Source: Lacticaseibacillus rhamnosus (GTDB lineage Bacteria > Bacillota > Bacilli > Lactobacillales > Lactobacillaceae). Taken from it: 64,000 nt of DNA. The DNA lies in contig NZ_LR134331.1 of NCBI RefSeq assembly GCF_900636965.1, positions 124,001 through 188,000 of the forward strand, written 5' to 3'. Positions within the stretch are counted from its first letter, which is position 1; every line of letters begins with the position of its first letter. The notes under the pieces were generated by a model. It saw nothing but the letters and a program-made list of their open reading frames with translations. It was not told the DNA's origin and did no database searches. This document shows positions 12,428 through 49,554 of the stretch, one piece after another. The translations under genes were made by a program, and so were the position numbers.

Positions 12428-12462
12428 AGCAAGAAAGGGACTGCTTCGGCGGTTCTTTTTTT
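12428..12462 (+). terminator. Terminator after rplI
   Basis: GGACTGC-TTCG-GCGGTTC with a stable TTCG loop is followed by a run of seven T. The 122-bp repeat array starts directly after it. Confidence 0.65.
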
Positions 12463-12871
12463 GTGAGCGCGAGCTGGCGCGGTTAGAAGTCGGAGTGTAA
12501 GTGGCCTCAGGCGTGATGGCCGGGCTTTGGCCATTGCGACTGAGGTTCTTACACGCAGACTTCTGCGCCAGGGAGCGCGTTATGGTGAGCGCGAGCCAGC
12601 CCGGTTAGAAGTCGGAGTGTAAGTGGCCTCAGGCGTGATGGCCGGGCTTTGGCCATTGCGACTGAGGTTCTTACACGCAGACTTCTGCGCCAGGGAGCGC
12701 GTTATGGTGAGCGCGAGCCAGCCCGGTTAGAAGTCGGAGTGTAAGTGGCCTGAGGCGTGATGGTCGGGTTTTGACCATTGCGACTGAGGTTCTTACACGC
12801 AGACTTCTGGGCTGGCGAACGCGTTATGGAGAAGCGTGAGCCGGCGCGGTTAGGGACCGGAGAACGCGTTA
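12463..12871 (+). repeat. Array of 122-bp hairpin repeats: three full copies and one deleted copy
   Basis: Full copies are at 12463-12584, 12585-12706 and 12707-12828; a shortened fourth (12829-12871) keeps only the two ends. Each begins GTGAGCGCGAG and ends GAGCGCGTTAT(G). Each folds into one long imperfect hairpin: GGTTAGAAGTC with GACTTCT, GTGTAAG with CTTACAC, CCTCAG with CTGAGG, and an inner GGCC-gggcttt-GGCC. In copy 3 the inner stem is GGTC/GACC and the basal stem GCCAGCCC/GGGCTGGC, both compensated. The same element recurs at 18.67, 28.68, 28.80 and 40.58 kb. Confidence 0.9.
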
Positions 12872-13005
12872 GATGACCGCTACCAATGTATCAACATATG
12901 ATGAGCGATACAGATGTGCAAACGCTTGTTTCGGTCAGCATTTTAACGTAGACTGTTAGGGATAAGCGGTTAAAAATGAGCCGATTAAATTGAAGGAGGA
13001 CGCGC

Positions 13006-18668: not shown

Positions 18669-18702
18669 GTGAGCGCGTTATAGTGTGAGCGCGAGCCAGC
18701 GC
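18669..18702 (+). repeat. Collapsed fragment of the hairpin repeat family
   Basis: The sequence reads GAGCGCGTTAT (the right end of one unit) followed by GTGAGCGCGAGCCAGCGC (the left end of the next); both central parts are missing. It lies in the 56-base gap between mupG and murQ. Confidence 0.7.
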
Positions 18703-22551: not shown

Positions 22552-25500
22552 TTGAGCAAAAAAATGCTTTGGAAGGATATACGCAAATCCTTTACAACGT
22601 CATGGGGCCGATTTTTCTCGATCTTGCTTTTGATGATGCTTGGGTCATTTGCCTTGGTCGGGTTATGGGTTGCCGGTCCGGATATGCGAGCAACAGGCGC
22701 AACCTATTTTAAACAATATAATTTGGCCGATTTAACCGTCATTGGTGAAGATGGTTTGGATAGCCACGATCAAAAGACGATTCGGGCGACAACTGGTGCA
22801 AAGCAGGTTGAATTCGGTTATCTTAAAGATGTCACGCTCAAAGGCACGCATTCTAGTTTTCGGATTATGTCAAAACCGGATAAGATCTCAAAATATAAGC
22901 TTGCTTCCGGACGCATGCCGACTAAGACGAATGAAATTGCAATCGATGCTAACTACAAAGGCAAATATAAGTTAGGTGACACGATTAAGTTTGTGCAACG
23001 AGCGGATCAAACCGGCAGCAAGGTGCTTAAGCGGACGCAATTCAGGATTGTCGGGTTTGTCTATTCGCCTGAAGTCCTGTCCGCCATTAACAAAGGCGAC
23101 AGTACTTCGGGTAGCGGTGATCTCAAAGGATACGGGGTCGTCACAGCGAATAACTTCGATAGCGACTTTTATATGATGGCGCGGATCACGTATCAAAATA
23201 CCCAGAAGCTGGATCCGTATTCCGATCAATATACCGATCGGATTCAAAGTCATAAAACGGCTTTGAACAAACGATTGAAAGATGCGCCGACAGATCGCTT
23301 GGCGGCTATCAAAAAGCAATACCAAAAGAAGATTGACGCGGGTCAAAAAAAGCTTGATGAAGCTAAGGCACAGTTAGACTCGGCTAAGGAACAGCTGACA
23401 ACCGGCCAGCAGCAATTAGCCAGTGCCAAGCAGCAAATTACGGCAAAGCAACAGGAACTTGATACGGCCGTTAAAAATGGCCAAGCACAAATTGCCAGCG
23501 GGGAAGCACAGTTACAACAAGCAGCGACTCAACTTTCACAAAGCGAGTCGCAACTAGCCAGTGCCAAACAACAACTTGAAGCCAGTCAGCAGCAACTGGA
23601 TGCCAAACAGCAAGATCTTGCCAGTGCCAAGCAACAATTGGATACTGCCAATCAGCAGCTTGCTAACAGTCAGGCGCAGTTGGCTGCCGCTAAACAAGAA
23701 ATTGAAGCAGCGCTGGCGAATAACCCGCAAATCGCTCAGCTGCCAGCATTCCAGCAGAAACAGGCGCAATATCAAAATGGTATCGCGCAGTATAACCAAG
23801 GCCTTGAACAATATCAAAATAATTTACAGGCCTATAACAATCAAGTTGCAGCCTGGAATACGGCCAATAACCAGCTTCAACAAAAGTACCAAGAATATAA
23901 TTCTGGCGCGAGTCAATTCCAACAAGGCCAGCAATCCTATGCGGCTAAGCAACAAGAATTAGAACAAGCTAAGCAGTCATTGGCGACTCAGCAGCAGTCG
24001 GGACAGCAACAAATTGAGGCAGCTAAGCAAGAAATGGCCTCAAACGAAGCAACGCTCAAAACCAAGCAGGCTGAATATGATCAGCAAGCACCAAACGCAG
24101 AAAAAGAAATCCAAAGTAACAGTCTTAAACTTGAGGATGCTAAAGAAGCGCTGAAAAATCTTAAAGCACCTACGTACACGGTTGACACTCGGCGTGAAAC
24201 TCCAAGTGGGCAAGGCTACATGGTTTATGACAACACTTCAAATATCATTGATTCGCTAGCCAATATTTTCCCATTCTTCATGTACTTTGTCGCAGCGTTG
24301 GTTACTTTTACCACTATGACGCGGTTCGTTGATGAAGAACGTATCAATTCCGGTACATTGGTTGCACTAGGGTATAGTCGGCATGATGTCATCAAAAAGT
24401 TTACAGTGTATGGTTTCCTGTCCAGCTTAATTGGTTCGATATTAGGGATCATCAATGGACATATCTTACTGCCATTGATTGTGTACAATGCCTACCATGG
24501 CGGGGTTAATGTTCCGCCAATCGAATTGCATTTCTATCCAGGCATTAGCATCGCGGCGTTGTTACTTGCGATGATCAGTGCGGTTCTGCCTGCATGGTGG
24601 GTTGCCCGGCGTGAACTGAAAGAACGGCCGGCTCAGCTGCTTTTACCAAAACCGCCTGCAAACGGCTCAAAGATTCTGCTTGAACGGGTCGGCTTTATCT
24701 GGAAGCGCATGAGCTTTACGCATAAAGTGACGGCGCGGAACATTTTCCGGTATAAGAAGCGCATGTTTATGACGATCTTCGGGGTTGCCGGATCAGTGAC
24801 CTTGCTGTTTTCCGGTTTAGCGGTTCAGCACAGCATCGGCGGGGTTAATGATCGGCAGTTCAACGATATTATCAAATACGATATGATCGTGGCACAAAAA
24901 GACAATATCACCAAGAATCAACAAACAAGTCTGGATAAGCTTTTTAACGAAAACGCGGTTAAGAAGACGAAATCAGTTCACTACGAAACCGTCACCAAAA
25001 ATGCCGGCGCCAATCATGATCGGCAAGATATCACCATGATTGTGCCGCAGTCAACGAAGAATTTTGACAGCTACATTCATTTAGCAACGCGCAAACGTCA
25101 AAATAAACTGACCCTTCAAGATAATGGCGGCATTATTTCCGAGCGGCTGGCGAAACTGTTAAATGTTGACGTTGGGGATACGATCACCGTTAAAGAGGCA
25201 GATGGTACCCGTCGCAAAGTCAAGATAACCGGCATTACCGAAATGTATATGGGTCACTTCTTATTCATGAACAAAACAGCTTACCAAAAGGCCTTTAATA
25301 CCAATTACAAGGTCAATGGGCATTTGGTTACCTTAAATGATCGGTCTATCAGTAATACCCGGGCCCATGCCGCGCAATTCATGAAAGAAGATGGCGTTAA
25401 AGGCGTGGTTCAGAATTCTTCTTTGAGGAATCAAATTACGACAGTTGTGAAATCGTTGAACAAGATTATGGGCGTTTTGATTGTGTTGGCAGCTGTTCTC

Positions 25501-28680: not shown

Positions 28681-28924
28681 TGAGCGCGAGCCGCCGCGGT
28701 TAGAAGTCGGAGTGTAAGCGGCCTCAGGCGTGATGGCCGGGCTTTGGCCATTGTGCCTGAGGTCCTTACACGCAGTCTTCTGCGACGGGGAGCGCGTTAT
28801 GATGTGAGCGTGACCTGGTGCGGTTAGGGACCGGAGTGTAAGTGGCCTTGGGCGTGATGGCCGGACTTTGGCCATTGCGACCAAGGTCCTTACATGCAGG
28901 TCCCTGCGCCAAGGAGCGCGTTAT
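28681..28924 (+). repeat. Two hairpin repeat units of the 122-bp family
   Basis: Units at 28681-28800 and 28804-28924. The first keeps the AGAAGTC/(AGTCTTCT) stem. The second has AGGGACC paired with GGTCCCT and CCTTGG paired with CCAAGG in the same positions, so both arms changed together compared with the 12.5-kb copies. They separate purA from the metal ATPase promoter. Confidence 0.88.
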
Positions 28925-40574: not shown

Positions 40575-40693
40575 TGAGCGCGAGCCGGCGCGGTTAGAAG
40601 TCGGAGTGTAAGGACCTCAGGCGTGATGGCCGGGCTTTGGCAATTGCGCCTGAGGTCCTTACACGCAGACTTCTGCGCCGGGGAGCGCGTTAT
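40575..40693 (+). repeat. Single hairpin repeat unit of the 122-bp family
   Basis: A full unit from TGAGCGCGAG to GAGCGCGTTAT. Basal stem CCGGCGC/GCGCCGG, then AGAAGTC/GACTTCT, GTGTAAG/CTTACAC, and GGACCTCAGGC/GCCTGAGGTCC, so the upper stem is longer and better paired here than at 12.5 kb. Confidence 0.88.
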
Positions 40694-44721: not shown

Positions 44722-45004
44722 GTGATAGTACCTCCGCGTATTATCCGAGTTTGATAGAAACTAAAGTGTAGCACAATCAAGGCGCAACCGCTATCAGGAC
44801 GCGTTGAATTGTAGCAAAAATTAACATCCGTGGCTAATACGGTTAGGCGCTGATATTTACCAAATTTGAGCGAGTCGGACCAGCTGCCATCCAAAGTTTC
44901 AAATTAACATCATAGCAACATTTCATTAGCAACTTATAAACAATGGCTTGGCATATTTAGTGATAACCAATGAGAAATGGAGGTGAACGACTATCGCCAC
45001 TGGA

Positions 45005-48360: not shown

Positions 48361-48486
48361 AAAGAGAAACCCTCCATATCTTGTTATAGGCGTTTGCCAA
48401 GCCGATTTCGGGTGGCTAACGACTGCTCATGGTTTAAGCATACGGAGGGCGTGTTTTTGAATTATTCATGAAATGTTGCTGAATTG

Positions 48487-49554
48487 TTAATTTTCACTTT
48501 GCGGAAGAGATACGGTGAAGGTAGTACCTTGGTGAGGGTTACTTTGGACACTGATTTTTGCATTAAGCAAGCGAATAACCTGCGCCACAATGGCGAGCCC
48601 AAGGCCATTTCCTGCACTTGCATGTGATGTATCGCCTTGGTAAAACTTGTCGAAAATATGTGCCTGCGTATTTTCGTCAATTCCCTGACCATCGTCGTGA
48701 ATATGGACACGTAGCGTGGTATCGTCAGCTTTTGCGAGAATCGACAGGTGACCACGTGGCGGTGCGAATTTAATTGCATTGCCGATGAGATTGTGCCAAA
48801 CGATCTCGAGGAGTTGGGGATTACTGATAATTGGCAGTGAGTCGGGTAAATCAATTGTTAGATGTAACTGTTTAGCATCAATCGCATTGGCATCATCCAG
48901 TAAGCAGCGCGTCAGTTGCGCACTGAGATCGAATTTTTGGTAATCAGGTGCCGTGACTTGGGTTTGTAGTTTGTTAAGCTTTAGAATATTCGTGACAAGC
49001 GTTGCTAAATGGGCGACCGAGTCACTAATGGTGGTCAAATAAAGTTGCTGTGTTTTCCGGTCAAGCCCTGACTGTTGTAATGCTTGGGCATAACCTTGAA
49101 TATTTGCCAACGGTCGTTTGAACTCATGTGACACATTGGCAACAAAGTCACTACGCAGGGTTTCGGTGGAGCCCAGTTCGGCGACCATAATATTGAAGTT
49201 AGCAAACATCGCGTCTAGGTAGTCGTAATTCTGGGGTGCATGAACCGGTTGTAAATAAACATCAAAGTTACCATTTGCTACTTGTTCAGCGGCATCGCTC
49301 AAAGCTTTAAGTGGCTTGTCAAAAGCGCGGTATTTCTGCCAGGCGGTGAATGCGGAGAAGCCGGCAGCGACCAACGCCCAGTAAAGCAGATACCAGCCTA
49401 ATAACGGGGTCAACACTAGATGCCAATTATTACCATAAAGTATTCCCGGTAAGGCTGCTAGAATGCTCAAGGTAAAGAAGGAGCCAAAGAATTGAAACCA
49501 TGAAAAGTGTTGCTTTACTTGTGGTTGAACGGCTTGCTCATTTACTGATTTCAT
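48487..49554 (-). CDS. Sensor histidine kinase
   Basis: 355 residues. Two membrane helices at about 20-70 with a very short extracytoplasmic loop, HAMP-like linker (ALSDAAEQVANGNFDVYLQP), dimerisation/H-box SDFVANVSHEFKRPLANIQGYAQ with the phosphorylated His, N-box LVWHNLIGNAIKFAPP-like segment (IVWHNLIGNAIKFAP), G-box HDDGQGIDENTQAHIFDKFYQGD and GNGLGLAIV. Short-loop kinases often sense cell-envelope stress. Its start overlaps the response regulator stop (ATGA). Confidence 0.93.
   Translation of the reverse strand: MKSVNEQAVQPQVKQHFSWFQFFGSFFTLSILAALPGILYGNNWHLVLTPLLGWYLLYWALVAAGFSAFTAWQKYRAFDKPLKALSDAAEQVANGNFDVYLQPVHAPQNYDYLDAMFANFNIMVAELGSTETLRSDFVANVSHEFKRPLANIQGYAQALQQSGLDRKTQQLYLTTISDSVAHLATLVTNILKLNKLQTQVTAPDYQKFDLSAQLTRCLLDDANAIDAKQLHLTIDLPDSLPIISNPQLLEIVWHNLIGNAIKFAPPRGHLSILAKADDTTLRVHIHDDGQGIDENTQAHIFDKFYQGDTSHASAGNGLGLAIVAQVIRLLNAKISVQSNPHQGTTFTVSLPQSEN

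Follow-up and report, generated by a model that had tools for sequence, protein, structure and literature searches.

Intergenic spacers of Lacticaseibacillus rhamnosus, a member of a genus of food and probiotic use, harbour a hairpin family that is probably a non-coding, non-autonomous mobile element found in Lacticaseibacillus and in at least one further genus of the Lactobacillaceae, spreading by the insertion scheme proposed here. Its copies are dispersed over the genome, covary strongly in their paired arms, dock with one end at gene signals and form polar arrays; they are present in one species and absent from another at the same sites, and none of the four cleanest empty sites shows a duplicated target. 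The family is of a known general kind; the one-ended docking rule and the polar arrays are unusual. A search of the literature (open-licence PMC papers) retrieved no description of the hairpin family in Lacticaseibacillus.

The window analysed, 64,000 nt in length, corresponds to bases 124001–188000 of the L. rhamnosus genome, a single contig of 2,988,387 bases. In the spacer between rplI and dnaB, the terminator hairpin of rplI is followed by TTTTTTTG (the T-run plus G of this intrinsic terminator, 12456..12463, + strand), and an array on the same strand begins at the very next base, with full units at 12464..12583 (the array leader, 139.2 bits in the model search), 12586..12705 (125.7 bits) and 12708..12827 (127.6 bits) and a collapsed fourth unit at 12831..12872 (22.8 bits), whose left end is fused to its right end as in the deletion states found on plasmids. 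Another T-run precedes a two-unit array on the + strand (leader at 28681..28800, 128.4 bits; second unit at 28805..28924, 127.6 bits), and a solitary full unit, likewise on the + strand, stands immediately after a T-run at 40575..40693 (129.0 bits). All full units listed in the original prediction were hence recovered on the + strand, at 125.7–139.2 bits. It had also named collapsed copies near 12829 and 18669; the former was found by the model, and the latter, TGAGCGCGTTAT (~18670–18681) with a second left-end fragment (~18686–18702), together 18670..18702 on the + strand and upstream of a minus-strand start, was read by eye and was not among the matches up to E 1 in the model search of the window. 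In the window the model thus accounts for six full units and a collapsed one, to which reading by eye adds another collapsed unit.

The full units in the window are 119–120 nt each, start with TGAGCG[C/T]GA and end with CGCGTTAT. As predicted, each of the six folds into one long hairpin (z from -5.7 to -10.2), and none of 200 shuffles of any unit was equally stable, so that chance hairpins can be rejected. The prediction that arm differences between copies are compensated was borne out for all the pairs quoted, i.e. inner GGCC/GGCC versus GGTC/GACC in the third tandem copy and, at 28.80 kb, AGAAGTC/GACTTCT versus AGGGACC/GGTCCCT and CCTCAG/CTGAGG versus CCTTGG/CCAAGG and, at the base, CTGGCGC/GCGCCAG versus a second type, but it does not extend to every difference: the second tandem copy has outer arms of two types, a GCCAGCCC left arm being joined to a GCGCCAG right arm, and the third has CCTGAG opposite CTGAGG.

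The question whether the copies are confined to this locus was settled by a DNA search, a covariance model and a profile, all of which found copies genome-wide; a family local to the rplI–dnaB spacer is accordingly rejected. The DNA search listed 45 places in the L. rhamnosus genome. A covariance model (R1) built from 61 L. rhamnosus units that align without gaps matched all 150 scored candidates at 112–143 bits, which gives at least 150 copies, and the profile search found 277 copies, 201 of them full, in 747 kb of the 2.99-Mb genome, this DNA having been partly chosen round matches. The first 448 kb, which were searched completely, hold 34 copies (26 full); the loci beyond were chosen for holding strong copies. 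The 201 full copies amount to ~24 kb, or 0.8% of the genome, as a lower bound, three quarters of the genome being unread. The GC content of gapless units is 60.9%, compared with 46.4% for the first 448 kb. There is a slight orientation bias with respect to replication, 90 of the 150 copies pointing one way and 60 the other, although members of an array are not independent and the two halves were split at 1.494 Mb by assumption. A shorter unit type was seen to the right of full units (for example near genome positions 1264578, 1264643, 1796071, 1796153, 2630110 and 2630312), mostly ~100 nt where its length is readable (53–103) and usually with a GGGCGTAAA-like start replacing the normal first ~36 bases.

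Relatives of the hairpin occur in 25 of 30 Lacticaseibacillus genomes (L. rhamnosus included), the sequence version differing species by species, and five genomes have at least 120 matches each, namely L. rhamnosus, L. zeae (G010), L. chiayiensis (G028) and the genomes G005 and G023. A broader survey revealed matches in 26 of 60 genomes (again including L. rhamnosus) but in only two of 25 genera, with 47 matches in G031, from another genus of the family. Among 72,556 plasmid records 15 match (nine from Pediococcus and six from Lacticaseibacillus), and none of 50,697 phage records does so at E 1e-5, on which ground a phage origin is rejected.

The fold is well supported by covariation, as the original prediction had proposed. 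In the alignment of 61 L. rhamnosus units (out of 68, two spurious regular-expression matches and five units of other length having been dropped), 18 of 44 pairs are changed on both sides, in 215 cells versus 68.3 in shuffles, none of 500 shuffles being as high; sliding one side by a single column lowers the pairing from 97.5% to 35.0–38.5%. Further pair types (42) in the same units are not in excess over shuffles (366/500). A structure-blind alignment of 31 chosen sequences from different species yielded a consensus hairpin of 41 pairs, 36 of which are changed on both sides. The cross-species count went from 79 to 65 sequences with the removal of 14 antisense, weak or cut ones, among which L322 571–691 may be a true copy, and then to 56 with the removal of nine duplicates. 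Pair covariation of the kind that marks a structured RNA is therefore present. No Rfam family matched in the window, and all eight Rfam matches up to E 1 in seven loci lie under their own gathering scores; a known Rfam family is thus rejected for this DNA.

Conservation is not restricted to canonical pairs. Among the gapless 120-nt units (163 of the 277 copies), to which the counts of broken and G-U pairs are confined, three internal G-U pairs remain G-U in 151–157 units and the six bases of a GGA/GCA internal loop are kept at 96–99%. Judging from their conservation, the unpaired positions 8–9 with 110–111 and 29–31 with 92–94 could form G-A pairs. All pair counts omit the loop-closing pair 59–65, and the G-U counts also omit the three pairs with a G-U consensus. 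On this basis, the leading units of L. rhamnosus arrays (84) have on average 0.25 broken pairs of 43 and a G-U:A-C ratio of 45:12 (binomial p 1.3e-5), compared with 1.46 broken pairs and 61:58 in later units (57); the difference in ratio is significant (Fisher p 0.0005), and setting leading plus solitary units against later ones gives p 7.0e-5. Solitary units (22) show 1.14 broken pairs and 27:15, so units flush with a signal are not all intact. In G005, L. zeae and L. chiayiensis combined, a count that leaves out G023, the ratio is 39:4 in leading or solitary units (32) and 16:1 in later ones (10), and the contrast in broken pairs is weak (0.59 versus 2.4, p 0.07); the preference for G-U is thus repeated in these species and the loss of the bias in later units is not. 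Tolerance of G-U over A-C suggests a folded plus strand, and single-stranded DNA would serve as well as RNA.

The most peculiar property of the family is its position relative to genes. We considered 124 L. rhamnosus clusters, each with at least one full unit, and assigned the left flank to a terminator class when a T-run of at least five lay within 4 nt of its end, to an SD class when it held the reverse complement of a Shine–Dalgarno (SD) sequence and a start, i.e. a gene pointing away, and to a promoter class when it held a promoter-like pair pointing away with a score of at least 7 (weights set by hand). The SD class is defined by pattern; genes were called by an open-reading-frame script, which gave some left genes a wrong direction. 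By these definitions, 39 left ends belong to the terminator class, 42 to the SD class and 43 to neither, and 23 of these 43 have a promoter pointing away, compared with 4.25 in shuffles; left promoter counts in the terminator and SD classes stay at the shuffle level (3 versus 3.1 of 39 and 4 versus 5.05 of 42). The mirrored right flank of the 124 clusters has one terminator, one SD and nine promoters pointing away (4, 3 and 2 by group), and random positions in right-hand spacers gave 1.6% and 5.9% (n 4480). Restricting the count to the completely searched first 448 kb puts the left flank in the terminator or SD class for 14 of 17 clusters and the right flank for one of 17. The gap from the T-run to the unit is 1–4 nt, and that from the SD core 0–16 nt (median 9). 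At SD sites the plus strand is antisense to the gene, and at promoter sites it lies on the upstream side of the promoter. For the SD class, a promoter on the right that reads into the element was rejected (4/42 versus 4.2 shuffled).

The same asymmetry holds for 91 clusters of G005, L. zeae and L. chiayiensis, with 75 signals on the left (27 terminators, 40 SD and 8 promoters) and 10 on the right (0, 3 and 7), so that docking at signal edges is one-ended and in one orientation in four of the five species sampled; G023 follows the rule only partly, its 24 clusters having a T-run, an SD or a promoter on the left in 6, 2 and 5 cases and on the right in 2, 6 and 1. Docking might come about through target choice, selection against insertions nearer to the signal, or loss of spacer DNA. 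If it is target choice, the element would read boundaries of transcription and translation and be moved by a recombination system of a new kind; under selection alone, the copies would map the smallest space that each kind of gene signal needs. The passages of papers on related repeats that we drew upon hold no description of docking at such boundaries.

The arrays are polar. In the 94 arrays of the L. rhamnosus genome the leftmost unit is full in 93 cases and the rightmost in 48, and the leftmost outscores the rightmost in 84 (Wilcoxon p 2.9e-13). The mean identity of adjacent full units is 85.1% (n 51), hardly above that of copies from different loci (84.3%), which is why we reject the notion that the arrays are mainly local tandem duplications. 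Local duplication also occurs, as indicated by seven of the 51 neighbouring pairs being at least 95% alike and by the 89.5% average identity of next-but-one units (n 11). The polar arrays may record the order of insertion, a possibility testable by comparing strains.

Comparison of related genomes, which the original prediction had called for in the form of presence and absence among strains, revealed that the sites differ between species. By DnaB, which is 98% identical in amino acids over the best segment, L. chiayiensis and L. zeae are the closest named relatives (about 85% DNA identity in gdpP–rplI); the rplI–dnaB array is missing at that place in both. Their rplI–dnaB spacer (L070 3590–3750, L071 3650–3760) contains instead a sequence with GGAGCAATCGTAGGCC and GGCCGGAGATTGCGGAG arms that may belong to another repeat family. 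Of the L. rhamnosus clusters that could be mapped to G005, 3/15 sites are occupied and 12/15 empty, and to G023 3/13 and 10/13, respectively; reverse mapping adds two shared sites (164575 and 16398 in L. rhamnosus). With one exception, units at shared sites are no more alike than random pairs from the two species. The exception is the unit directly after the putative 3' end of 23S rRNA in G005 and G023 (0.88 versus a mean of 0.67), located at C1:214811 and C1:261825, respectively; the L. rhamnosus sequence at this place is shorter.

The four cleanest empty sites (G005 138576, 141197 and 58198; L. zeae 317575) show no target-site duplication. At G005 138576, compared with L. rhamnosus and G023, the unit was inserted without duplication or loss, its right end carrying three additional bases; insertion at G005 141197 was likewise free of both, with some right-hand bases diverged. 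About five bases are replaced at G005 58198, between gdpP and rplI, relative to L. zeae, and a few at L. zeae 317575, behind a terminator, relative to G005. At other empty sites bases are replaced or lost, and these sites are too diverged to judge. The two sites with no spacer loss favour target choice or selection over spacer loss as the origin of docking. G005 and L. zeae are 94.3% identical over 169 kb (aligned pieces above 2 kb), and 28 mapped clusters differ between them by more than 30 bases, 12 of these by 110–127 bases, approximately one unit; the clusters were counted from both sides, some events therefore twice. Two L. paracasei plasmids with flanks 98.1% and 98.4% identical have units at one and the same position in a sugar-transport operon that are only 78.7% identical to each other; an L. 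plantarum plasmid has a right-end remnant only at this position. At a second plasmid site the flank is followed by a short remnant only in two records, and in another two full units lie between flank and remnant, an arrangement compatible with insertion at the left as well as with deletion. Several of the differences seen in close pairs and on plasmids may indeed be accounted for by deletion between short direct repeats as well as by insertion. In plasmid p2 of L. paracasei L1 (L390) a unit has an internal deletion between short repeats, and an L. rhamnosus plasmid (L380) is full at that place.

None of the four mover families searched for accompanies the hairpin consistently. The REP-associated Y1 transposase, which the original prediction had proposed to look for elsewhere in the genome, was not found, as PF01797 (RAYT/TnpA) has no match in L. 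rhamnosus, the control having matched in 5/14 genomes. Likewise without a match in this genome are the IS110 DEDD domain (PF01548), Y2/IS91 (PF04986; 0/14 control genomes, but a match in G023) and reverse transcriptase (PF00078), which leads us to reject IS91, IS110 and retroelement passengers for L. rhamnosus. Y1 does match in 13/30 genomes of the genus, including L. zeae and L. chiayiensis, but not in the copy-rich L. rhamnosus, G005, G023 and G003 (85% complete), and none of Y1, Y2, IS110 and reverse transcriptase is present in all five genomes with at least 120 matches. A pair of left and right half-elements around a gene was not encountered in 747 kb of L. rhamnosus or in 400 kb each of G005 and G023, and an autonomous long version is thus rejected for this sampled DNA.

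Taken together, the data support mobility and a folded plus strand, and from them we infer the insertion mechanism and the cause of docking. The active form would be the folded plus strand, as RNA or single-stranded DNA, inserted left end first by a putative enzyme. Newcomers would land between the signal and the resident units, so that older units come to lie further right, where they may lose the fold and collapse through deletion between short repeats; selection for the fold would act chiefly on copies that can still move. It is conceivable, albeit tentatively, that the hairpin represents a new class of mobile elements: one whose folded plus strand, perhaps RNA, is itself the moving form, inserted left-first by a putative enzyme without target duplication at the edges of terminators, ribosome-binding sites and promoters, with arrays growing at the signal and decaying outwards.

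The alternative to which we would give some, if limited, weight is an element acting in place, the leading unit being kept to shield the adjoining signal (terminator, promoter or SD) from transcription nearby, or being processed as double-stranded RNA. Docking at signals and the near-perfect fold of the leading L. rhamnosus units, with G-U tolerated, would fit such a regulatory or insulating role. It sits poorly with the placement of the plus strand, antisense to the gene at SD sites and upstream of the promoter at promoter sites, with the empty counterparts of L. rhamnosus clusters (12/15 sites in G005, 10/13 in G023), with shared-site units as alike as random pairs bar the one at 0.88 after 23S rRNA, and with different units at one site of 98%-identical plasmids. 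Palindromes are prone to template switching, and the covariation might in principle be mutational, one arm being copied onto the other with no selection for a fold. Paired differences often come in blocks, as would then be expected, but we regard this origin as improbable given the three internal G-U pairs kept in 151–157 of 163 units, the 96–99% conservation of the GGA/GCA loop bases, and an excess of G-U over A-C in L. rhamnosus that is seen in leading units (45:12) and absent in later ones (61:58).

The original prediction was right in seeing a dispersed family, independent of the genes around it, whose fold is maintained, but the REP/BIME reading fails the search for Y1 and a classical MITE gained no support. 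Its third suggestion, a structured RNA, may hold in a narrow sense, as the leading L. rhamnosus units behave like a plus strand that folds. It is rather unlikely that a DDE transposase resident in the genome moves the hairpin as a classical MITE: the element is small, palindromic, highly base-paired, dispersed and non-coding, as a MITE should be, but it lacks target-site duplications at the four cleanest empty sites and half-element pairs around a gene in the sampled DNA of L. rhamnosus, G005 and G023, and it is GC-rich (60.9% versus 46.4%), MITEs being described as AT-rich in the passages used here (PMC3049150). We see very little chance that these are REP/BIME elements moved by a since-lost Y1 (RAYT) transposase. 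High copy number, palindromy and tandem composites in intergenic arrays are shared with REP/BIME and REPINs, and Y1 does occur in the 13 of 30 genomes of the genus; on the other hand, Y1 has no match in L. rhamnosus, G005, G023 and G003, all rich in copies, the unit measures 120 nt compared with 20–40 bp given for REPs in the part of the source available (PMC3733652), and the GTAG/CGTC tags that the title of that source ascribes to REPs are absent, the 61 aligned units starting with TGAGCG or AGAGCG (few variants) and ending in CGCGTTAT-like sequences.

Other small repeats resemble the hairpin in part. BOX and RUP of Streptococcus pneumoniae, small interspersed repeats with tight RNA folds, resemble it in these respects, but they are reported in the excerpts consulted to cause target-site duplications (PMC3049150), which the hairpin lacks at the four cleanest sites. 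The repeats bcr1–bcr18 of the Bacillus cereus group, of which bcr1–3 are MITE-like and often found in UTRs or operon gaps, are alike in their group-specific intergenic nature, a comparison made by description only; docking, polar arrays and the lack of target duplication are features of the hairpin absent from the available part of the bcr description (PMC3446304). Integron attC arrays consist of structure-conserved hairpins of similar length with the newest unit nearest the insertion point; in the hairpin arrays, by contrast, genes do not separate the units, and insertion is not tied to one fixed site. In enterobacteria, ERIC/IRU is an alternative name of RU-1. According to the excerpted text, RU-1 is a MITE-like intergenic unit of 127 bp (PMC2759123), and it thus resembles the hairpin in size and character, as far as descriptions can be compared; tandem polar arrays and one-ended docking are the hairpin's.

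Two further repeats were noted in the window. Positions 23405–23664 contain three direct repeats of 59 nt, the other two being 73% and 61% like the first, and 44901–44942 together with 48452–48493 form a 42-nt inverted repeat, 76% complementary and 3.5 kb apart, which perhaps marks the ends of a mobile element.
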